Positions 5,170-36,313 of a stretch of DNA of 36,313 nt are shown here, in pieces. The translations under genes were made by a program, and so were the position numbers. Positions within the stretch are counted from its first letter, which is position 1. Every line of letters begins with the position of its first letter. The notes beneath the pieces were generated by a model. That model was not told the origin of the DNA. It made no database searches and saw only the letters and a program-made list of their open reading frames with translations. The DNA is taken from positions 1-36,313 of the IMG/VR virus record IMGVR_UViG_3300010297_000023, one strand, 5' to 3'. The stretch comes from a virus.

Positions 5170-5221
5170 GATAAATAATTAAGTATAGTTTTAATTTCTC
5201 CAATAAGTATTCTTACATGAA

Positions 5222-5238
5222 TATTTATGTGATAAATA
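5222..5238. promoter_or_regulatory. Palindromic divergent late promoter between tape measure and gp26
   Basis: TATTTATgtgATAAATA is a perfect 7-3-7 inverted repeat. Read leftward it gives ATAAATA, 52 nt before the tape-measure ATG. Read rightward it gives ATAAATA, 30 nt before the gp26 ATG, which also has an AAGG ribosome-binding site. One short element can therefore drive both genes. A second rightward TAAATA lies at 5172-5177. Confidence 0.6.
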
Positions 5239-9211: not shown

Positions 9212-9217
9212 TATTTA
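9212..9217 (-). promoter_or_regulatory. Late promoter motif TAAATA before the Dps-like gene
   Basis: ATAATAAATA lies 6 nt upstream of the ATG at 9205. Confidence 0.5.
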
Positions 9218-9224
9218 TTATTAA

Positions 9225-9881
9225 CTAGTGATATTTATGCCATCCTTTTTCTAGCATAGGTAAAAATGTTTTTTTATCTTTTTTACCGTGTGCAATGATA
9301 TGTAATCTTGATTCTGAACTACGATTCCAAACAGCATGAGGCTGTCCTATGTCAATTAAAAATGCACTACCGTTTGTAAAAGGAATAGTACCCCAATTTT
9401 TATATCTAAATTCACATTTTTCTGGATTGTATATTGAAATATTAACAGGATTTAAACATCTTTCCTGATCATCTTGATGAGGGAGTATATAACCCCCAGG
9501 CTCGACCCACATAAATCTCAATCTTTTATAACTTTTGTAAGGAAATGTATTTTCAAAAAAATGCTTTGTAATAGGACATTGATCAGCAACCCAAGTCCAT
9601 TTATACTCTGGTTCTTGTTTAAATTTACCGTTATAATACATCCAATCATTTGTGTGTTCGGCATCTATACCGTGTATGCAAATACTTTTCCAAGTACCGC
9701 CACCTTCGTGTTCTCTGTGAACTACGCATTTGTCTTTTATAGCAAGTGCTTCTTTATAAATGTCTTGCCATGGAATATCTAAATCTAGTTTAACATAAGG
9801 TACAGTAGTATCTTCAGCTAGCCATTCCCATATATCTTTTCCATTGTAATCACATGCAAAATGTTCTTCAAGATCTTTCAT
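9225..9881 (-). CDS. 2-oxoglutarate/Fe(II)-dependent oxygenase
   Basis: 218 aa. The double-stranded beta-helix motif is complete: His135-x-Asp137 in ILPHQDDQ, His182 in GQPHAVWN, and Arg192 in SESRLHIIAHG for the 2-oxoglutarate carboxylate. PGGYILPHQD and IDIGQPHAVWN resemble the aspartyl/asparaginyl beta-hydroxylase-like oxygenases common in cyanophages and pelagiphages. These enzymes hydroxylate a protein, nucleotide or small-molecule substrate; the substrate is not evident here. The start is fixed by a TAAATA motif 5 nt upstream, in the 11-nt gap after the gp46 stop, suggesting late expression separate from gp46/47. No signal peptide is visible, so it should act in the host cytoplasm. Confidence 0.85.
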   Translation of the reverse strand: MKDLEEHFACDYNGKDIWEWLAEDTTVPYVKLDLDIPWQDIYKEALAIKDKCVVHREHEGGGTWKSICIHGIDAEHTNDWMYYNGKFKQEPEYKWTWVADQCPITKHFFENTFPYKSYKRLRFMWVEPGGYILPHQDDQERCLNPVNISIYNPEKCEFRYKNWGTIPFTNGSAFLIDIGQPHAVWNRSSESRLHIIAHGKKDKKTFLPMLEKGWHKYH

Positions 9882-19102: not shown

Positions 19103-19303
19103 CTATTTGATTGATAGATTCACAGCACTCGGACCTTTTGGTCCATCTTGTGTTTCAAATGTTACTGTATCACCTTCGTTTAACGAGTTTAAGCCTGCGG
19201 CTTCTACTGCTGAAATGTGTACAAAAACATCTTTATCTTCACAGGCAATAAATCCAAAGCCTTTTGCGGCGTTGAACCATTTTACTGTTCCTTGATTACT
19301 CAT
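19103..19303 (-). CDS. csp: Cold-shock domain protein (CspA family)
   Basis: 66 aa, the usual length. The five-stranded OB fold is complete, with RNP1 KGFGFI (14-19) and RNP2 VFVHI (26-30), [15 protein letters not shown] at the start and [20 protein letters not shown] at the end. These proteins bind single-stranded RNA and DNA and melt RNA structure. A phage copy may keep mRNA unfolded in a cold ocean host; that is inference. The ATG follows AAGGAAAAACAC. It is separated from RNA B by the RNA B terminator, so it probably has its own promoter; a TAAATA motif lies 112 nt upstream. The resemblance to host genes suggests transfer from a bacterium. Confidence 0.92.
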
Positions 19304-19415
19304 GTGTTTTTCCTTGTGTTCGTGTTTATATTTGAGGAAGTTTGTATCTAATATTAGGGCGGGAGGTTTGTTAGTTCTACTGCGTCTTGTTCTTATTACT
19401 GTCTTATCTCATATC

Positions 19416-19421
19416 TATTTA
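19416..19421 (-). promoter_or_regulatory. Late promoter-like TAAATA upstream of the cold-shock gene
   Basis: GAATAAATAG lies directly after the RNA B terminator. It would leave a leader of about 100 nt before the cold-shock ATG, with no strong structure visible in it. Confidence 0.35.
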
Positions 19422-19426
19422 TTCAT

Positions 19427-19459
19427 AAAAAAAGACACTTCATTACAACGTGCCTTTTT
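19427..19459 (-). terminator. Rho-independent terminator of RNA B
   Basis: Read on the minus strand, AAAAAGGCAC pairs with GTGTCTTTTT over 10 bp with one G-U, followed by further T residues. On the plus strand the same pair is an A-C mismatch, so the element works leftward. Confidence 0.72.
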
Positions 19460-19679
19460 CATAATATAGTAAAATAGGTAGGACTTGGTTACACCTACAA
19501 GCACGTACCGGAATACCATTCTAATACGTACAACCTAACCCCGCTAGTGACTGCGATGTGAGCCTGCCTATTTCTAGTACAAACCCTGGGTACTACCCCT
19601 GGCTAGTCAAGTTCGGCCCCTCTGGTAAAGGCCTCTTCCTTGCACTATAAACAAAAGTTAATTATGCTTTTGTTACTAT
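19427..19679 (-). ncRNA. Candidate structured RNA B with its own promoter and terminator
   Basis: About 250 nt between a near-consensus sigma-70 promoter and a terminator, with no ORF of note. GC is about 48% over 19471-19650 (my count), far above the surroundings. Helices seen on the minus strand: an 8-bp AACAAAAG/CTTTTGTT hairpin right at the 5' end (19650-19674); GGCCUUU/AGGGGCC with two G-U pairs that would be mismatches on the plus strand (19615-19633); AGTAC/GTACT (about 19576-19593); and a long-range AATAGGcAGG/CCTaCCTATT (19473-19482 with 19563-19572, one mismatch) closing a domain with GGTTA/TAACC and ACGTA/TACGT hairpins inside. It does not match tRNA, tmRNA, RNase P, SRP or cobalamin riboswitch signatures I know. 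It lies between speD and the cold-shock gene. Confidence 0.68.
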
Positions 19680-19685
19680 GTTATT

Positions 19686-19714
19686 ACTATAACAAACAAT
19701 AGCTGTTTTGTCAA
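19686..19714 (-). promoter_or_regulatory. Sigma-70-like promoter of RNA B
   Basis: Consensus TTGACA (19709-19714), 17-bp spacer, TATAGT (19686-19691). It follows the speD stop by 10 nt and would start transcription near 19679, exactly where the 5' hairpin begins. Confidence 0.75.
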
Positions 19715-19724
19715 CCTTTTATTT

Positions 19725-20090
19725 TTAGATTTCTTCAAAACTATTTTTTCTATCTAAAAATTTATAATCTGTCATTATAGGATCAAGTATTTTGATGTGA
19801 TCAAAAACAACAGTTGGATCAAACTCACTACAACTATAAACATCTAACTGTAAAAGAGCCGGCCATGATTCGTCCCAGATGTGTAAAGCAATATGGCTAG
19901 TCTCAATAATTGCAAACGCTGTCATACCTTGATTTCCATCAACTTTACAATAGATTGCAACCGGCCCATACATGCACTTCATATTAATTTTTTTAATTAG
20001 TTCATTAATAAAGTTAATTGCCACCTCTTCATCAAACAGCGGTTTTTGAATTTCTGCTCTCACAACAAGGTGTTTGTGCTCTATGCTCAT
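19725..20090 (-). CDS. speD: S-adenosylmethionine decarboxylase proenzyme-like (SpeD)
   Basis: 121 aa, the size of the prokaryotic SpeD proenzyme. The self-processing site is preserved as IIETSHIALHIWDE: Ser65 would become the pyruvoyl group, with His70 five residues on and Cys87 in DVYSCSEF. In Thermotoga SpeD the equivalents are Ser63, His68 and Cys83; here two residues are inserted before the Cys and the usual PE is DE. The enzyme makes decarboxylated AdoMet for spermidine synthesis, and speD occurs as a metabolic gene in marine T4-like phages. Activity is likely but not certain given the changes. A TAAATA motif lies 7 nt before the ATG, suggesting late expression. Confidence 0.8.
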   Translation of the reverse strand: MSIEHKHLVVRAEIQKPLFDEEVAINFINELIKKINMKCMYGPVAIYCKVDGNQGMTAFAIIETSHIALHIWDESWPALLQLDVYSCSEFDPTVVFDHIKILDPIMTDYKFLDRKNSFEEI

Positions 20091-21859: not shown

Positions 21860-21867
21860 TATTTATA
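21860..21867 (-). promoter_or_regulatory. T4-type late promoter TATAAATA before clpP
   Basis: An exact match to the T4 late consensus, 30 nt before the clpP ATG. It is divergent from the gp25 promoter at 21911. Confidence 0.65.
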
Positions 21868-21910
21868 AAAAGATGTCAAGCATAATTAAGTTAGCAGTTA
21901 ATCAAAGCAA

Positions 21911-21916
21911 TAAATA
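21911..21916 (+). promoter_or_regulatory. Late promoter motif ATAAATA before gp25
   Basis: AATAAATA lies 17 nt before the gp25 ATG, followed by the ribosome-binding site AAGGATAAGGA. It would drive the gp25-gp6-gp7 operon. Confidence 0.6.
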
Positions 21917-25853: not shown

Positions 25854-28800
25854 ATGGCTAAGGTAAGTTCAAAGTTACCAGAGTTTTTACAGAATCCAAA
25901 ACTGAAAAACTTTTTTGATGGCACAGTAGAACAAGCATTTTCAAAAGCTGATAATGAAAAAGTTACTGAATGGATTGGTAGAAAATACGGCACATATTAT
26001 AATCCTTTCAAAGATAATTACAAGCCCGAAGATAACAGCTTAAGAAAGAATTATCAATTAGAAACCACAGCCGCATTAAAAAATCCTGACAATCTACTAA
26101 CGTCAGATTCTATATTTTTTAACGAAGCTCTTGATTACATAGTAAATGAAAATGGAAAAATTAATAATCAAAATAGATTGTTTGGTCAAGAATATTATAC
26201 ATATTCTCCACCTATTGATTATGATAAATTTTTAAATTACGAAAACTATTATTGGTATCCAAGTTTAGATACTGGTGTTCCGAGTGTTGTTGTTTCAGGA
26301 ACTACTGAAACATTTACAGCAACAAACAAACAAGATTTCACATTAGAATATCCTATATCAAGTAACGATGAAGTAAAAGTCAACGGAACACTGATTTCAA
26401 CATATACGTCAACCGGATTAAATTTAACTATAAGTAGTCCAACTTTATCCGCAGGCGATAACATTTCTGTATTACATAAAATTGATCCAGATGATATCAT
26501 TGGTTTAAAAATTTATACATCACCAAATGGAATTACGTTCACATCAGGTTTATTAATTGAGTTTTCATCAAACTATCTTTCAAATTCAAGTTATGCAAAC
26601 AAAAGATATTTTGTTGAAGGTGTTAATAGCAAAAATGGTATTGAATTTGTTGAAACCAGTGACGAAACTGAATTATTTTTAGATGAAGAGTTTCTTCCAT
26701 GGGATCCAGCAGAAGATCAAGGAACAACATCAACAACAGATGGATTTGATTCAAATAGATGGGATACTGTTCCTTCAATTCAAAATCCTGACTATATTAC
26801 AATTGAAAGAGGTTGTACTGACAAAAATCCATGGTCTCGAACTAACGGTTGGGTACACAAAGATGTTATTACGGCATATAAAAACTTTCAAGAAGAAGTA
26901 ACCGTATATCATCCTTTTGATAGTGTTACAAGTTCTATCAGTGGTTGGGACGATGGTTACTGGGATAGCACAACTGAATTTCAACCTTCAATATTTCAAT
27001 TAGATATTAGCAGAAAAGGTAGAAGACCTATTATCGAATTCAAAAAAGATATAAAACTTTATAACTACGGAGAAAAACACACACAAACAGTTGACGTGTT
27101 GTCTATAGAAGACACAATTGATGATATAACAGGAGAAGCAAGTTATAGAATTGATGATATTGAATTACGCGATGGTATGAAAATATTGTTTATTAATTCA
27201 AACTTTGAAACAACACTAACACCATGGGATGGTGATAGTTATCCATGGGACCATGACAGTGATAATAATCCTTTAACGCCAGTTGAAGATGATGGCGACA
27301 TTACAACAACGTCAGGACTAACAGGCGGTGACGTTGGTTGGGATATCACTGGTACCGACTTTGATGATTCAAGTTCAATATGGCAAGTGTCAGGAGTAGG
27401 CTCATCTATAACACTTACAAAAGTACCCGGCGTTACTATTGATGATTATAGTTTAGTGACTATTAGACTTGGTGCAGTGAACGCCGGCAGAGAATACTAC
27501 TGGACAGGATATGCATGGCAAGTATCACAACAGAAAACTTCTTTAAATCAATCACCATTGTTTGCATTATATGATAGTAACGGCAAGTCATTAGACGATT
27601 CAATTACATATCCATTATCAACTTTTGTTGGTAATAAAATATTTGGCTATAAAATAGGCACAGGCGCCACTGATTCTGTATTAGGATTTGCACCTTATTA
27701 TGTAGGATATAATTCGGTTAGTAACTACCAATTTGAAAACTTTTTAAACACTGATTCTAGTATAAATGGATTCAAGTATTATAAACAATTTGATTATAAA
27801 AATATTTTAAAAGATACAATTGAATATGATCTAGTAATTAATCCAGACTATACATCTTCTGCTAACAAAGTTTATATAGAAAATATAAAACAGCAAACAT
27901 TAAATTTACAAAGAGGAAATTCTTATAAATTATTATTAAATGACAGTTCGTTTAGTTCAAACGGGTTTTCAAAAACATATCATCCTGTATTGATAAGTTT
28001 AACAGACGACGGAGTACACAACTCGGGCACAGTTTATAATACCGGTGTAAAATATTATCTTGATAATGTTGAAGTAACAGAAACGGTTTTTAAATCTAGT
28101 TCTTTTAACACAGCCAAAAAAAGATACATCGAAATTAATCCTACAGCATCAACTCCTGACACATTATATTATTTCTGTAATACACATCCTGGCATGGGAG
28201 GAAAAATAAGTTTATTAGATAATCCTTATTCTACTATTGCTGAAAAAACAGAAACAAATTATTTTAACGAATGGAGATCAGTTGAAACAAAATCAAAACA
28301 AAAATTAATTCAAGAATTTGAAACTGACGAATATTCTATCAAAAATAATTTTAAACTTGATACTATTGTAGCAAGTGATCAGTCCGTGCAAGTATATGTT
28401 AACAACAAACTGGTATCAAACTATACAATTAATTTTGGGCAGTTTATTAAATTTAATAGTGATTTAGAAAATCATCAACATATTTTAATAAAGTATGATA
28501 CAAATGATGTTGATACAATACTAACATCAGCCTATTACGAAGTGCCAAAAAACTTGTCTAATAACTCACAAAACAAAGATGTAGTTAGTTACAGTTATAG
28601 TAATTTCTTAGATCATTTTGCTTCTGGTATACAAAATCAGCATAATCTTGTAGGACTTGCACTAGGTAATAACACATATCGAGACACTAGAAAAGATTTA
28701 AATTTATCTACTGAAATTTTACAACACAATGCACCGTTACTAAAATTTATGACCCATGTCAACAGCGATGACAGAAATATTGTCAAGTCTGTTAGATATG

Positions 28801-31800
28801 CACAAAGCGAATATGTAAGATTCAAAAATAAATTTCTTCAGACATTAGAAGCAGTTGATAGAGAAAACGACACTGGAACATGGTCCGGTAAACAGCTTGT
28901 TGATGCCACACTAAAGAAAATGAATACCAATAAAAAACTAATCAACAATTGGTCATATAGTTTAATGCTGTCATATGGCGAAACAGGAAAACGTACCACA
29001 ATTACTATTGATTCTACAAATAAAACATGGAACAATGATACATCAGCTGTAACGCAGAACTATCAAGAAATTTTAAATCTTGTAGGTGCACCTGGATTAG
29101 AGTTAGATGTTAGTTATAATCCATTAACTGATAAAGACATTAAATCTTTATATGTTTACAAGAATAATGTAATTCAATTAATGAATGTTGATTATGTTAT
29201 AGATAATTCTGCTGGTACAAAAATTGTGTTTATTGGTGCCAATAAACCTGTTATAGGAGATAAAATTCAAGTTGATTATTTTGATGTAAAACAACCTGCT
29301 TGGATTCCAGCAACACCATCAAAATTAGGAATAAGTCAAGTGTTTATTCCACAAGAAATATCTGATACATCATATTCTGCAGGATCGCAAACATTTATTC
29401 AAGGACATGATGGTTCATTGACTTTAAAATACAACAACTTTAAAGATACAGCATTGTTAGAGTTAGAAAAAAGAATTTATAACGACATTGAAGTTAAATT
29501 TATTGATCCAGATTATGTTCCTTTATTATCTTACGATCATGTCTTTGGAAATTATTTTAATAAAAAAGATTACAATTACGAAGAATTTGTTCAAGCAATT
29601 CGATCACATGCGTATGATTGGGGTGTAAAAAATGAAGTAGAAATGAGATTAAACAAAACGTATGATTCAACTGATTGGAAAACATGGAATTATTCTTCTG
29701 TAAAAAATATTTCAAACGATCCTACTCCGGGACATTGGAGAGGTATATTTAAAAAGTTTTACGGTACGCACAGACCACATTCACACCCATGGGAAATGTT
29801 AGGATTTAGCATTAAACCAAACTGGTGGGATGACACATATTCATGGACTGATGTTGATAAAAGAAATAGTTTAATTAATGATATTGAACAAGGTATTATC
29901 AAACTTGGTAGTCGAAGAAATAATTTAAAAAATGAGTATGCTGATAAATCTAATGTTTATAGACACGATGGGTTTACTAATTATGTTCCTGTTGATTTGC
30001 AAGGACAATTAAGAAGTCCAAAGGATATTGGATTGATTTCGGTTAATCCTGTTTCAACAGAAGCTAAAAAAGACTGGAAGCTAGGAGATCTATCACCAGC
30101 TGAATTGGCTTTTGTTATTGACAGTTCTTATGCGTTTGCTATGATGAATGTGATGCTTGTAAGCAAACCAGCTGAATTTTGTGAAACAATGTTTGACACA
30201 CTAAATGTTGATTTTGCTAACATAAACAAAAAACAAAAATTTTCAAAATTAACAAATAAAAGGTTAAACAACAATGTATATGTTCATAGAGAAATATCTA
30301 CAGATAGCAAAGTAGTAGTTGGTTACGGATACAATCAATATGTTTCTGAAAGATTAATATCACAGACTAAAAATGTTTTAAATTTATATGGTGGTATTAT
30401 TAGAAATGTAAATCCACAGTTGGGTATTAAACAAGCATCTTATATAGATTTTGATTCATACAGAGTACAAGCAGAATCATATTCACCAACATCGTCAACT
30501 TCAAGTATTTTCTTACCAGACAACAACGTGACAACATTTGTACACACTAGCGAAGCTGTTGGTAAAACTGCATATTCTGGTGTTATCATTGAAAAAACAA
30601 GCAACGGTTATAAAGTGCATGGATACGATGCAGGTGCAAACTACTTTAATGTAACAGAAAGTGATATGAATGGGTTAAAAGCACCAGTTGTAGTTGGAGC
30701 AAAGCCAATTAATGTTCCAGCATATACCCCAGGTAATAGTTTAGCATCAGGGGATTATATCAAGTACGAAGGACAAATTTATAAAGCAGTTAAAGATCAT
30801 ACAACCGGTGATAAATTTACACCAAGCAATTATCAATCTGTTGCAGAAGCGCCAACAGAGGGTGGAAGAAAAGTTACATATTATAGAAACGTTGTTAACG
30901 ATTCAATTAAAACAATTGAATACGGAACTGAGTTTACATCAGAACAAGAAGTATTTGATTTTATGATTAACTGGGGAAGATACTTAGAAAATCAAGGTTG
31001 GATATTTGATGTACAAAATAACAGAATTAGAGAAACATATGACTGGCTATACTCTGCAAAAGAATTTTTATTTTGGAGTTTAGGTGAGTGGGCAGATGGC
31101 TCAGTACTGACATTATCACCTCTTGCATCTGAAGTTTCTTTTGAACCTAAAAAAGGTATTGTTGCTAATGTTGAAGATATTATCGGTAATAGCTATGCTA
31201 TTCTTAATAGATCGGGTATGCCAATTGATGCCGCAACTACAACAGTGATTAGAGATGGTAGAAAAGTAACTATTACAGAAGACAACAATGATCCAATTTA
31301 CTTTGTTAATTTGTTTACTAGAGAAATTGAACATGTTACTGTTTTTGACAATACTACATCATTTGGAGATGTGATTTACGAACCGGTACTTGCAATTAGA
31401 CAACCAAGATTAAAACAAACAGTTTTAAGATCAACAGGCTGGCTTGGTAAGTTAGAAGCAAACGGTCATTTAATTACTACAAGCGGTATTGTCAGTAACT
31501 TTGACACATCAGCAAAAGATATTCAAACATATCTTGATGTTGATTCAACTACAAACAATGATGAACTTAATAAAGCTGGGTTACACACAATTGGCTATCA
31601 GTCTAGAGATCACTTAGATAACTTAGAAATCATTGATGAAAATCAAGTTAGATTTTATCAAGGTTTTGTTAAACAAAAAGGTAGTAAAAATGCAATTGAT
31701 AGATTGTTAAGAAGCAACACAGTTCTAGACAATCAAGATATTAATATCTATGAATATTATGCTATTAAACTTTCAGACTTTGGCGGTAACGATATTAATC

Positions 31801-34800
31801 AATCAATTGAAGTAAAACTTAGCGATGAAGAAATTAAAACCAATCCGCAAATAATCCAATTCTTACCTAAAAAAGATGATGTGGTTACAACTGATATAAA
31901 GACCGATAACATTATTACAATAGATGTTGATGATAATACAAGATGGGTTAAAAAACCAAATGGCAATAAAAACTCTGAAGAACTTTTTGCAACAAGACCA
32001 GAGTCATTTGAAATGCCAACTGCTGGGTATGTACATTATAAAGATGTTAATGCAAGAGTGTTTACAAAAACAGACTTAGACAGTTATTATAAAAATAATC
32101 ATTCATCAGGAAGTATAAACGAAGGACATTTAGTATGGGTAGCAAAAGATAATTCAACAGAGTGGAATGTTTATAGATTCACAGAAGTCTCACAGGCCAT
32201 TGAATCAGTAACTTCAACAGAACCGTTTACTGTTACATTATCAGAACCAACAAAATTATTAACAATACACGGTGATTCAACAAATTTAATTTTAGAAAAA
32301 TCAAATATAGCCGATCAGAGTATCACAGCTGATACATACGGTGATAAAACACTGACACTAAATTTAGCAGATCAGTCAGTGAGTAAAACATTTGAATTTG
32401 CAAATGTTGGTGGTTCGGGTGCAGATATTGTTGCTGGCAATGTTGCAGATCAAGTACTTGAAATGATAGTAACTACAGCAGGCTCAGGATATTCAGTTGG
32501 AGACAGCGTTGAAGTTTCTGGATCAGGTGGATCATCTGCAACAGGTAATGTTACTGCAATTGATATGTCGGGTGGTATAACAAACATTGCCGTTATATCG
32601 GGTGGCGCAAACTTCTTTGGCGAACCTGGCGATATATCAATTAAAACAGCCGGTGTTGATTCTGCCGGAGTAGGTGCTGTTATTAGATTTAAAGGTAATA
32701 ATCCTACGTATCAAATTAACACAACTTTATCTAGCTCAGCCACACCGTTTACAAAAGGAGAAACAATCACAGGTAGTGTTAGTGGAGTTTCTGCAACTAT
32801 TATAAATGTGTACACAGACGGAACAACTACAATTTTACATATTAACGGACATACTGCAACACCGGTTGCAACTGATGTGTTTACAGGCGGTACATCTGGC
32901 GCAGTATCAACAGGAACAAACACAATCACAGCAAGAAGCTTGGCATCTTATGGCGACTCAACATTTGGTGCATTACTTGATTTAGAAATTAACAATGGCG
33001 GCACAGGATATCAAAGTCCAAGTATTCATGTTTCAGGTACAACACCAGCACAAGGTATACTTGAACAGACTTCCGGTGTAATTGATAAAGCATATATAAC
33101 TGACGGCGGTTCTGGATATAGATTACAATTTCCTGAAAAAGCAGATGTTGAAATCGCAATCAAAGATACAGTATTAAATGCAAACGTTGATTTTGTTGAC
33201 AGTTTATTAAAATGTGATACAGTATCAAATGTTGTTGTTACAATTAATGAAGCATTTGACGGCACAGGTCCTACAATTAATTTAGGATCAACTGCAAATA
33301 CTTCTTTACTAATTTCAACACAAAGTTTATCTGCAAATGCTACAGTAACTTCTTTTAATAGTAATATAACTGATAGATCAAACACAGCATTAAGATTGAG
33401 CTTTAGTGCCACAAATGCAACAACAGGTAATGCTACAGTTACAGTTAATTACAAAAAAGCATTATACAATATTTCAGAACTTGATGGAAGTGCTACTACT
33501 ATAACAGCAAATGATTTATCAGGTGGTACACATGCTTTATATAAATGGAAAGATGTAAGACTTGCATCAAGAAACAACGGAGTTGATCAAAGCAACGTTG
33601 GTTCTAGTTTATCTACAACTGTAAATGATTTTGTATCAAATGTTTGTTCTGATGTAACGTTTATTGATGGAGACAAAATTTTCTTAGACAATGGCGGCAA
33701 CAACAAATGGTATACAATGACTATGACCACAGATGCTTCTGTAAAAACAGCATACGACATTTTAGCAAGTAACAGCAACGTAGACTCAAGTATTACAATT
33801 GGTAGCAATTATTGGATTATTAATTCTGATGTTGATTATACAGCAACAACACCAAGCCAAACACTGTTTAATACTACAAAAAGAATGCAACACACTCAAG
33901 TAAATTCAGCACTGTTAAACAGATCAAGAATTTACAACAACTATGAAGGTGACAACGAAGTTGATTTAGAAGTGTTTGATCCAATTAAAAATATCTACCC
34001 GGGTGTTGCAATGAGAGAATTATCTTATATAAGAAAAACAAATCCTGCGGTGTTTAGTAATACAGCAAACAACTCTATTAAAACAGCAAATGATTTAGAT
34101 GTATGGGGAGAAAATCAAGTAGGACAATTATGGTGGGATTTATCAACAGTAAGATACATTGAATATGAAAACTTTGATCAACAATATAGACTAAGACACT
34201 GGGGTTCGTTATTTCCAGGATCAACTATCGATGTGTATGAGTGGGTAAGCAGTACAAAAGCACCAAGCAGTTGGGGTTTAGACGGAACAGTTCAAAGTAC
34301 AACTGATTATGTTGTTGAAACTGAAACTGACAAGCAAGGCATTGAGCATACAACTTATTACTTCTGGGTTAAAGCCAGAACTGAAATTCCTGCGAACCAT
34401 CAACGAAATATTTCAGCATTGTCAGTACAAAGATTACTAAAAAATCCTACTTCTCAAGGATTAAGTTGGTACGCACCAGTATCAACATCAAGCATATTAG
34501 TTTCAAACATTGCAAGGTTTATTTCAACCGAAAATAGTGTTTTAAGAGTTAATTATAAAATCAAAGATCTTGATGTGCCAGTACACAAACAATGGTTATT
34601 GATAAAAGAAAACGATCCTAATGCTCTAGTTCCTACTAGTGTATGGAATAAATTCACAGATTCATTATCAGGCCAAGATGCATCCGGTCTTGCTGTTCCT
34701 GATACTACATTACATGAAAATATGAAGTATGGTAACACGGTTCGACCAAGACAAAGTTGGTTTAAAAATGTTCAAGAAGCAAGAAGAATATTTAGATACA

Positions 34801-36313
34801 AAGCTAATAACATTTTATCAAAAATTAATCTTGATCTTGAATATCCAAATTGGGATAGTAATATCAATACTGATACACTGTATGAAAAAGTTGACTTTTA
34901 TTTAGATGGTTATAACAGTTCTTTAATTATCGATAGAATTGTTGACACAGCATCTGAAATTGACAAATCGGTTTTATCAAAAAATGAAGTTATTAAAGTA
35001 AACATTGATAACAATTCTAAATGGGCCATTTACATTTACGGCAACAGAGAAAGTATTTTATCAGGTAATATTGATGTGGCAACAGATACAACAGAACAAG
35101 CATCAACAGCCACAACAGGTGCATCAACCGGTAACATTTATTCTGCATCTTCACAGTCAACCCACTTAGATGATGAAGGCATAGATCCAGCTACATATGA
35201 ACTTGTAAGAGTTGCTACACAAACTAGCACAATGGAATTAAAACAAAACTTCTATTCAAGTACAGCAAGTGCAATAGAAATTAGAGAAATTATGAGCACA
35301 TTGTATAATACAATATTACCTGGATCATATAAACAATCACTAAGTGAATTAATGTTTGAATGTATTAACTATGTGTTCACTGAACAAACAAACATTGATT
35401 GGATTATCAAAACCAGTTATTTTGATGTTCTACAAAATGACAACAGTTTACAACAAAAAGTTTCGTATAAACCAGATACTTTTAATTTTGTAGAAAGTTA
35501 TATCAATGAAGTTAAACCATATCATGGTAAACTGCTAAACTTCTTATCTAAGAAAACAACAGCAATTGAAGAAGCTAATGTTGACATGGATGAATATTCA
35601 ATTAATATGAAAACCGATTTGGTATTTGATAGAGTTTCTAAAAACATTGAAGTATTAAGTTCCGGTACACCAGCTGAACAACTTGAAGCATTAAAAACCA
35701 GAACATCGTTAACAACTGTTCCTGATGCATCAGCTATTGACAGAGTAGCAAAATATTATTTTGGAGAACAATTGGCTTCGCTAATTACATCAAATCCTGA
35801 TTCTGTTGATGCATTTATGAAACAATTACATAATATTGTTTCTCCATTTAACGACTTAGACCTTGACAGTACACCTTTCACAATCAATGAAGAAGGAAAT
35901 ACTATTGGTATTGACAAACACAGATTTGACAACGACATTGGTTGGGATTCAGATGTACAACAAACAATATACAGATCATTATTTCAAAGAAAAAATTCAT
36001 GGCAACCGGGTACAGCATACACAACCACAATTAATACAAACAGTTCAGGTGTTATTACATCAAACAGTTATGTACAATACAATGACATATCGCATTTTGC
36101 AAACTGGAGTGTGTCAAACACGTATGCTGTTGACGATTTAGTTGTGTATGATGATAGACTTTATAAGTGTAATGTTGCACACAAAAATCTTGCAAGTGAA
36201 ACTACTTTCCAAAACAGTAGATGGGATCTAATTGAAGATTATGTTTACTTCACAGCAAAAGATCACACATCATCAAGTAGTTTTGCTACAGATTATAATA
36301 ATGGTAATTGGAG
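25854..36313 (+). CDS. 7: Giant gp7-like baseplate wedge protein, 3' end outside window
   Basis: 3486 codons without a stop, still open at the edge; T4 gp7 has 1032. It begins MAKVSSKLPEFLQNPKLKNF; FLNYENYYWYPS, PDYITIERGCTDKNPWSRTN and YINEVKPYHGKLLNFL are typical of gp7-type proteins of marine T4-like phages. Additions include a cupredoxin-like segment (about residues 680-790) with His710, Cys775, His778 and Met781. Near 32440-33140 are repeats of a Gly-x-Gly-Tyr element (AGSGYSVGD, NGGTGYQSP, DGGSGYRLQ). The T4 protein initiates wedge assembly with gp10, gp8, gp6 and gp53; the extra domains probably decorate the outside and may contact the host. It starts 3 nt after the gp6 stop. Confidence 0.85.
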   Translation, partial: MAKVSSKLPEFLQNPKLKNFFDGTVEQAFSKADNEKVTEWIGRKYGTYYNPFKDNYKPEDNSLRKNYQLETTAALKNPDNLLTSDSIFFNEALDYIVNENGKINNQNRLFGQEYYTYSPPIDYDKFLNYENYYWYPSLDTGVPSVVVSGTTETFTATNKQDFTLEYPISSNDEVKVNGTLISTYTSTGLNLTISSPTLSAGDNISVLHKIDPDDIIGLKIYTSPNGITFTSGLLIEFSSNYLSNSSYANKRYFVEGVNSKNGIEFVETSDETELFLDEEFLPWDPAEDQGTTSTTDGFDSNRWDTVPSIQNPDYITIERGCTDKNPWSRTNGWVHKDVITAYKNFQEEVTVYHPFDSVTSSISGWDDGYWDSTTEFQPSIFQLDISRKGRRPIIEFKKDIKLYNYGEKHTQTVDVLSIEDTIDDITGEASYRIDDIELRDGMKILFINSNFETTLTPWDGDSYPWDHDSDNNPLTPVEDDGDITTTSGLTGGDVGWDITGTDFDDSSSIWQVSGVGSSITLTKVPGVTIDDYSLVTIRLGAVNAGREYYWTGYAWQVSQQKTSLNQSPLFALYDSNGKSLDDSITYPLSTFVGNKIFGYKIGTGATDSVLGFAPYYVGYNSVSNYQFENFLNTDSSINGFKYYKQFDYKNILKDTIEYDLVINPDYTSSANKVYIENIKQQTLNLQRGNSYKLLLNDSSFSSNGFSKTYHPVLISLTDDGVHNSGTVYNTGVKYYLDNVEVTETVFKSSSFNTAKKRYIEINPTASTPDTLYYFCNTHPGMGGKISLLDNPYSTIAEKTETNYFNEWRSVETKSKQKLIQEFETDEYSIKNNFKLDTIVASDQSVQVYVNNKLVSNYTINFGQFIKFNSDLENHQHILIKYDTNDVDTILTSAYYEVPKNLSNNSQNKDVVSYSYSNFLDHFASGIQNQHNLVGLALGNNTYRDTRKDLNLSTEILQHNAPLLKFMTHVNSDDRNIVKSVRYAQSEYVRFKNKFLQTLEAVDRENDTGTWSGKQLVDATLKKMNTNKKLINNWSYSLMLSYGETGKRTTITIDSTNKTWNNDTSAVTQNYQEILNLVGAPGLELDVSYNPLTDKDIKSLYVYKNNVIQLMNVDYVIDNSAGTKIVFIGANKPVIGDKIQVDYFDVKQPAWIPATPSKLGISQVFIPQEISDTSYSAGSQTFIQGHDGSLTLKYNNFKDTALLELEKRIYNDIEVKFIDPDYVPLLSYDHVFGNYFNKKDYNYEEFVQAIRSHAYDWGVKNEVEMRLNKTYDSTDWKTWNYSSVKNISNDPTPGHWRGIFKKFYGTHRPHSHPWEMLGFSIKPNWWDDTYSWTDVDKRNSLINDIEQGIIKLGSRRNNLKNEYADKSNVYRHDGFTNYVPVDLQGQLRSPKDIGLISVNPVSTEAKKDWKLGDLSPAELAFVIDSSYAFAMMNVMLVSKPAEFCETMFDTLNVDFANINKKQKFSKLTNKRLNNNVYVHREISTDSKVVVGYGYNQYVSERLISQTKNVLNLYGGIIRNVNPQLGIKQASYIDFDSYRVQAESYSPTSSTSSIFLPDNNVTTFVHTSEAVGKTAYSGVIIEKTSNGYKVHGYDAGANYFNVTESDMNGLKAPVVVGAKPINVPAYTPGNSLASGDYIKYEGQIYKAVKDHTTGDKFTPSNYQSVAEAPTEGGRKVTYYRNVVNDSIKTIEYGTEFTSEQEVFDFMINWGRYLENQGWIFDVQNNRIRETYDWLYSAKEFLFWSLGEWADGSVLTLSPLASEVSFEPKKGIVANVEDIIGNSYAILNRSGMPIDAATTTVIRDGRKVTITEDNNDPIYFVNLFTREIEHVTVFDNTTSFGDVIYEPVLAIRQPRLKQTVLRSTGWLGKLEANGHLITTSGIVSNFDTSAKDIQTYLDVDSTTNNDELNKAGLHTIGYQSRDHLDNLEIIDENQVRFYQGFVKQKGSKNAIDRLLRSNTVLDNQDINIYEYYAIKLSDFGGNDINQSIEVKLSDEEIKTNPQIIQFLPKKDDVVTTDIKTDNIITIDVDDNTRWVKKPNGNKNSEELFATRPESFEMPTAGYVHYKDVNARVFTKTDLDSYYKNNHSSGSINEGHLVWVAKDNSTEWNVYRFTEVSQAIESVTSTEPFTVTLSEPTKLLTIHGDSTNLILEKSNIADQSITADTYGDKTLTLNLADQSVSKTFEFANVGGSGADIVAGNVADQVLEMIVTTAGSGYSVGDSVEVSGSGGSSATGNVTAIDMSGGITNIAVISGGANFFGEPGDISIKTAGVDSAGVGAVIRFKGNNPTYQINTTLSSSATPFTKGETITGSVSGVSATIINVYTDGTTTILHINGHTATPVATDVFTGGTSGAVSTGTNTITARSLASYGDSTFGALLDLEINNGGTGYQSPSIHVSGTTPAQGILEQTSGVIDKAYITDGGSGYRLQFPEKADVEIAIKDTVLNANVDFVDSLLKCDTVSNVVVTINEAFDGTGPTINLGSTANTSLLISTQSLSANATVTSFNSNITDRSNTALRLSFSATNATTGNATVTVNYKKALYNISELDGSATTITANDLSGGTHALYKWKDVRLASRNNGVDQSNVGSSLSTTVNDFVSNVCSDVTFIDGDKIFLDNGGNNKWYTMTMTTDASVKTAYDILASNSNVDSSITIGSNYWIINSDVDYTATTPSQTLFNTTKRMQHTQVNSALLNRSRIYNNYEGDNEVDLEVFDPIKNIYPGVAMRELSYIRKTNPAVFSNTANNSIKTANDLDVWGENQVGQLWWDLSTVRYIEYENFDQQYRLRHWGSLFPGSTIDVYEWVSSTKAPSSWGLDGTVQSTTDYVVETETDKQGIEHTTYYFWVKARTEIPANHQRNISALSVQRLLKNPTSQGLSWYAPVSTSSILVSNIARFISTENSVLRVNYKIKDLDVPVHKQWLLIKENDPNALVPTSVWNKFTDSLSGQDASGLAVPDTTLHENMKYGNTVRPRQSWFKNVQEARRIFRYKANNILSKINLDLEYPNWDSNINTDTLYEKVDFYLDGYNSSLIIDRIVDTASEIDKSVLSKNEVIKVNIDNNSKWAIYIYGNRESILSGNIDVATDTTEQASTATTGASTGNIYSASSQSTHLDDEGIDPATYELVRVATQTSTMELKQNFYSSTASAIEIREIMSTLYNTILPGSYKQSLSELMFECINYVFTEQTNIDWIIKTSYFDVLQNDNSLQQKVSYKPDTFNFVESYINEVKPYHGKLLNFLSKKTTAIEEANVDMDEYSINMKTDLVFDRVSKNIEVLSSGTPAEQLEALKTRTSLTTVPDASAIDRVAKYYFGEQLASLITSNPDSVDAFMKQLHNIVSPFNDLDLDSTPFTINEEGNTIGIDKHRFDNDIGWDSDVQQTIYRSLFQRKNSWQPGTAYTTTINTNSSGVITSNSYVQYNDISHFANWSVSNTYAVDDLVVYDDRLYKCNVAHKNLASETTFQNSRWDLIEDYVYFTAKDHTSSSSFATDYNNGNW
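27900..28214 (+). other. Cupredoxin-like domain within the gp7-like protein
   Basis: About 105 residues from LNLQRGNSYKLLLNDSS to YYFCNTHPGMGGKISLL. They hold His710 (THP-like TYHPVLIS), Cys775, His778 and Met781. The C-x2-H-x2-M spacing is that of amicyanin, one of the type-1 copper proteins. Sequence alone does not show that copper is bound. Confidence 0.55.
32440..33140 (+). repeat. Gly-x-Gly-Tyr beta-type repeats inside the gp7-like protein
   Basis: Degenerate repeats of about 30-60 residues are marked by AGSGYSVGD, NGGTGYQSP and DGGSGYRLQ, with a Gly-rich, Ser/Thr-rich spacer. The pattern resembles repeats in adhesion and tail-fibre proteins. Confidence 0.5.

Follow-up and report, generated by a model that had tools for sequence, protein, structure and literature searches.

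The manA RNA (Rfam RF01745) was published as a cis-regulatory riboswitch candidate (Weinberg et al. 2010, PMC2864571), its structure was corrected in Rfam 14.3 (PMC7779021), and the view that it is a cis-regulatory element or riboswitch candidate has been repeated later (PMC9964418; PMC12197685). It has remained an unexplained riboswitch candidate since 2010, and we found no experiment on manA RNA in the passages of the literature that mention it. T4-type phages also carry PeSL cassettes, which are short units of a promoter and a stem-loop that occupy variable intergenic sites and are shuffled as modules.

We analyzed a window of 36,313 nucleotides, by which we mean the whole stretch of viral DNA presented above, with a focus on a folded minus-strand RNA (about 220 nt) that immediately follows speD. 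The original prediction stated that this RNA matches no RNA class; however, an Rfam search identified it as a homolog of manA over the full length of the RF01745 model (Table 1). The match comes from a permissive search, and the window copy falls below the gathering cut-off of RF01745 (55.2 bits), which is a curation threshold and not a biological trait. At gathering thresholds, the Rfam search of the whole window gave no match. The other weak permissive matches (Ref1C, STnc40, PK-PYVV, HIV-1_SL3) were at chance level and were discarded. An unannotated homolog in Pelagibacter phage Mosig EXVC030M (MT647606; blastn, 72.6% identity over 66% of the query, 3e-20) clears the cut-off with 64 bits, as do other copies of the same clade (58.7, 57.5 and 56.4 bits in G014, G010 and G009); 4 of the 20 window-clade records lie above the cut-off and 16 below it. 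Because most copies tested score in this lower range, phage annotations will miss the window clade, which is common in marine virus contigs. A covariance model built from the window clade (R1) matches typical cyanophage manA RNAs over their full length. Homology to manA is secure because of these full-length reciprocal model matches together with the joint covariation described below, and the feature is almost certainly a diverged member of the RF01745 family. For the window's own record, the first pass of a genome search with RF01745 misses the diverged copy, and such a miss is not evidence of absence. A scan of genome contigs with a 16-base manA string gave 75 matches; 2 of the 15 loci checked with Rfam hold manA, both of them among T4-like phage genes.

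Homology, structure, promoter, terminator, single copy number, variable sites and the downstream late-promoter motif were established by sequence comparison, with about 190 relatives compared in all. The window-clade set was collected from IMG/VR by two conserved strings, which biases the collection to copies that hold these strings and precludes variation in the columns within them. The check for compensatory changes proposed in the original prediction was run on 44 diverse relatives and gave a 12-helix structure with 71 pairs, in which 91.3% of the cells are paired and 43 pairs changed on both sides; the covariation was 0.420 as compared to 0.157 after shuffling, and slid pairings reached no more than 0.104. 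When 24 clade RNAs were aligned jointly with 14 of the cyanophage type, 91.6% of the cells were paired and the covariation was 0.619 (0.187 shuffled, at most 0.124 slid), the alignment being fitted to the model, which favours this score. The compensatory changes fit one structure common to the window clade and the cyanophage manA RNAs. The outermost helix P0 is paired in 87% of the cells, with changes on both sides in 4 of 6 pairs, and the closing helix P2 reads UAUAG/CUAUU in the window clade and GGGAG/CUCCC in cyanophages. We also considered and rejected an anti-Shine-Dalgarno mimicry by the CCUCC-like 3' strand of the cyanophage copies: in the window clade this strand is CUAUU with its partner altered to match, and since both strands change together, the strand belongs to a helix and is not a conserved mimic.

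The structural data bear on the idea that the locus yields an R-loop primer transcript that starts replication as at T4 origins, or that it serves as a recombination site at the DNA level. An early-type promoter, a single copy and an intergenic position would suit such a role, but the compensatory changes across the helices indicate selection on the folded RNA rather than on DNA or an R-loop. A replication-start transcript, which had been listed among the possible roles, fits poorly with a covarying structure that is retained at many unrelated genome sites, and we regard this explanation as highly improbable.

At the window locus, the prediction that the minus strand encodes an independent structured ncRNA, running from promoter to terminator, was borne out, also by the compensatory changes among the relatives. 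The consensus promoter was found where it had been placed and is, with its 11/12 match, the top promoter-like site within the 2.2 kb scanned; its -35 box starts 10 nt past the speD stop codon, and the coordinates confirm that the cold-shock gene comes next. Transcription is predicted to start at about 19679, which coincides with the first base of P0. The minus strand from 19679 to 19424 folds with -76.5 kcal/mol (z -2.64, 1 of 200 shuffles being equally good); the plus-strand fold is less stable (-58.8, z -2.21 relative to shuffles). The good terminator is likewise present, and there is no ORF of at least 60 aa on the RNA strand across the RNA region. The GC content is about 42% and not roughly 48% as had been stated. 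A peptide-coding reading was rejected, the core length of the homologs not being kept in multiples of three (mod 3: 46/33/12). ARAGORN and Rfam detected no tRNA or tmRNA in the window. With its own promoter and its own terminator the RNA is as expected of a trans-acting phage ncRNA, and in the window phage this manA-family RNA probably forms a stand-alone transcription unit.

Table 1. Coordinates of the RNA, its signals and neighbouring genes in the window, and loci of related observations in other records.
Feature	Position	Strand	Remarks
speD (S-adenosylmethionine decarboxylase)	19725-20090	-	phrog_3125, PF02675; upstream neighbour outside the RNA
Sigma-70-type promoter, TTGACA-17-TATAGT, TG before -10	19686-19714	-	11/12 consensus match; drives the RNA
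manA-family ncRNA (predicted transcript from start site to terminator)	19427-19679	-	Rfam match, fold, covariation
Full-length match to Rfam RF01745 manA RNA, model 1-192/192	19468-19672	-	42.6 bits, E=1e-9
Outermost helix P0, 19679-19675 with 19470-19466	19466-19679	-	Pairs RNA 5' and 3' ends; outside Rfam model
5' hairpin P1 (ACAAAAG/CTTTTGT)	19651-19673	-	6/7 pairs with changes on both sides
Closing helix P2 around multi-branch core	19473-19649	-	Covaries between clades
Intrinsic terminator (stem of 11 bp and U tract)	19427-19460	-	-11 kcal/mol, z -4.19
T4-type late-promoter motif (AATAAATAG), core 19416-19422	19415-19423	-	Between terminator and cold-shock gene
Cold-shock protein gene, next downstream, behind terminator	19103-19303	-	phrog_729, 8.5e-20; neighbour, not part of the RNA
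Annotated ORFs overlapping manA	L375 1457-1633; L376 1545-1718; L379 1507-1713; L372 1571-1675 and 1647-1745
Flank-sharing, core-differing loci	L022, L151, L089; L035, L097, L113; L077, L023, L072
GACCTAAGATGCAACT...GGGCAGATGGTCTT element	L183, L190, L194, L243, L253, L261		Just downstream of manA

Across the relatives, a consensus promoter lies at the 5' end of the RNA in 179 of 186 loci in total. Matches of at least 10/12 were found at near-constant distance in 87 of 92 window-clade loci (control 14/440), and such matches occur in 92 of 94 cyanophage-type loci (control 8/219). In 54 of 89 window-clade loci an intrinsic terminator borders the RNA on its 3' side, as compared to 2 of 890 shuffles, a count obtained with a relaxed definition, the stricter one having dropped the window itself; these terminators comprise 32 different sequences. 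The calls of promoters and terminators are consensus-based, each being set against a control. A clear terminator was present in only 10 of 94 cyanophage-type loci by the stricter test, and the Mosig-like sub-clade lacks a terminator and has a start codon 11-20 nt away. Several other features were seen at manA loci of this kind. A GACCTAAGATGCAACT...GGGCAGATGGTCTT element, which is a hairpin with a long loop and frequently a T after it, recurs directly 3' of cyanophage-type manA. The 'hypothetical proteins' of P-HM1, P-SSM4, S-SSM5 and P-HM2 that overlap the manA RNA are probably spurious ORFs. Cyanophage P-RSM6 has a Glutamine-II riboswitch match just at threshold near manA (L374 1031-1083), and in Mosig a permuted tmRNA gene (L001 587-925) lies about 3 kb away from the manA RNA.

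These data can be used to weigh the established view, in which the RNA would be a riboswitch or another cis-acting 5' leader that senses a metabolite and controls the next gene, here the cold-shock gene, via the terminator. It is in keeping with the Rfam type (Cis-reg) and with Weinberg et al. 2010 (PMC2864571), with the position of Mosig-like copies directly ahead of rubrerythrin, peroxiredoxin or gp32 start codons, with downstream genes in cyanophages that include talC, hsp20 and gp32, and with an 8-bp antiterminator pairing that could form in the window alone. However, when the complementarity between RNA and terminator was compared within the window clade, no antiterminator signal was found: since the value for the RNA's own terminator (6.96) was no better than that for the terminators of other loci (6.91), nothing points to an attenuator. 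Also the single copy per genome, the unrelated neighbours, the separate late-promoter motif of the next gene and the presence of convergent genes or tRNA genes at the next position argue against a riboswitch, which we consider unlikely. The Mosig-like copies, and the cyanophage copies with no clear terminator, could be leaders, or else a longer precursor may be cut down to give their RNA.

The motif NTAAATA, which is the late-promoter consensus of T4-type phages, is found behind the terminator in 40 of 52 terminator-bearing loci as compared to 50 of 943 (5%) in the background, and the late sigma factor gp55 is encoded in the window. Over the window as a whole there are 12 ATAAATA sites, fewer than expected by chance, most of which closely precede the start of a gene (950, 2805, 5171-5238, 9212-9238, 9887, 13594, 19416, 21860-21916), which suggests that they represent a late-promoter map of the window phage. 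In L021, L062 and L094 the RNA is followed within about 62 nt by a convergent gene, the gene after manA in P-TIM68 is convergent too, and three contigs (L176, L196, L275) have a tRNA-Asn-like gene, as read from the sequence, directly behind manA. The surroundings of the window RNA had been interpreted as a host-takeover gene cluster, but the neighbours turned out to be T4-like genes (portal, baseplate, head-protease, gp46/47-like and gp55) together with speD and the cold-shock gene. On the plus strand, positions 25854-36311 hold an ORF that extends beyond the end of the window and encodes a giant protein of at least 3486 aa, adjoining a baseplate wedge gene.

All of the 20 window-clade records, the largest being 185 kb, contain one match each; there was one manA place per record in 37 of 37 phage records, several of which are duplicate GenBank/RefSeq entries, and one manA copy in 14 of 14 cyanophage-type contigs, these counts resting largely on contigs of which most are possibly incomplete. 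The sites differ across 12 annotated cyanophages (after gp23, after pstS, between regA and purL, before gp32, near talC, or behind psbA and ferredoxin genes). In the window clade the RNA is found, among other places, after gp23, in a gp32 region and beside speD and csp. The 185-kb record L067 resembles the window in that the RNA is followed by the same csp gene with a late-promoter motif, but it has a different terminator and, upstream, a gene for a capsid-type 388-aa protein, which we take to be gp23-like; gp23 is annotated in the cyanophage records. In L004-L008, speD relatives at 75% identity lack an adjacent RNA of this type, so the two do not always occur together. The csp gene neighbours the RNA in few relatives only, and a decoy for the cold-shock product is unlikely as a family-wide role.

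The variation in sites, and the accessory metabolic genes that often adjoin the RNA, would also be compatible with a mobile regulatory cassette that resembles PeSL, in which a promoter and a stable 5' RNA move between intergenic sites by recombination and provide accessory genes with early expression or a stable mRNA. Nine locus pairs have near-identical promoter/terminator flanks and different RNA cores (76-83% alike), and this swapping of RNA cores between conserved flanks points to recombination at the locus, which keeps the cassette explanation alive. Nonetheless, a terminator parts the RNA from the next gene in the window clade, and a promoter cassette requires neither a 12-helix covarying RNA nor a limit of one copy per genome; such a cassette seems to us quite unlikely.

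The invariably single copy, the early-type promoter, the usual presence of an own terminator in the window clade and the unrelated neighbours argue for an RNA gene that acts in trans, and we lean towards this reading of the manA-family RNA as a single-copy phage gene, bearing in mind that a single copy and a variable site alone do not prove trans action. For such a trans-acting RNA, we infer early expression and the nature of the partner along the following lines. Early in infection the consensus promoter would be used by the host RNA polymerase carrying the housekeeping sigma factor, and the RNA would start at the first base of P0 and fold into a multi-branch structure with paired 5' and 3' ends. 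Its own terminator would end it, the cold-shock gene being served by its own late promoter, and the folded RNA may bind, in trans, a protein or other machinery common to diverse marine hosts. We see an even chance for a wider reading taken as a whole, namely that manA RNAs overall are an early ncRNA gene, widespread and single-copy among marine T4-like phages (cyanophages and pelagiphages), and that this gene would act in trans on a target common to very different hosts and not as a riboswitch, would have a mobile site, and would owe its cis-regulatory label to neighbours taken as targets. If the RNA is indeed a stand-alone phage RNA, a hunt for the ligand via the neighbouring genes is misdirected.

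Among the known systems, the wcaG RNA (RF01761) is a separate family of cyanophage-borne candidate riboswitches described alongside manA, and Rfam gave no wcaG match in the window. The window RNA shares with manA RF01745 the helix order of the full model, the loop residues that are kept in cyanophage copies, and carriage by T4-like marine phages; it differs in its score below the cut-off, the extra end-to-end helix P0, the terminator directly behind it, and the separate late-promoter motif for the next gene. Because of this abutting terminator and separate motif the window RNA does not resemble a 5' UTR, and the 5' UTR location, which is the basis of the cis-regulatory label and not a trait of the model, is not what is seen in the window. 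The Mosig copy has the same promoter position and the same fold as the window RNA, but lacks a terminator and lies directly ahead of a rubrerythrin gene. PeSL cassettes resemble the window RNA in their combination of a promoter with a stem-loop at variable intergenic sites, from which the window RNA is distinguished as a covarying RNA of about 220 nt that is present in a single copy.
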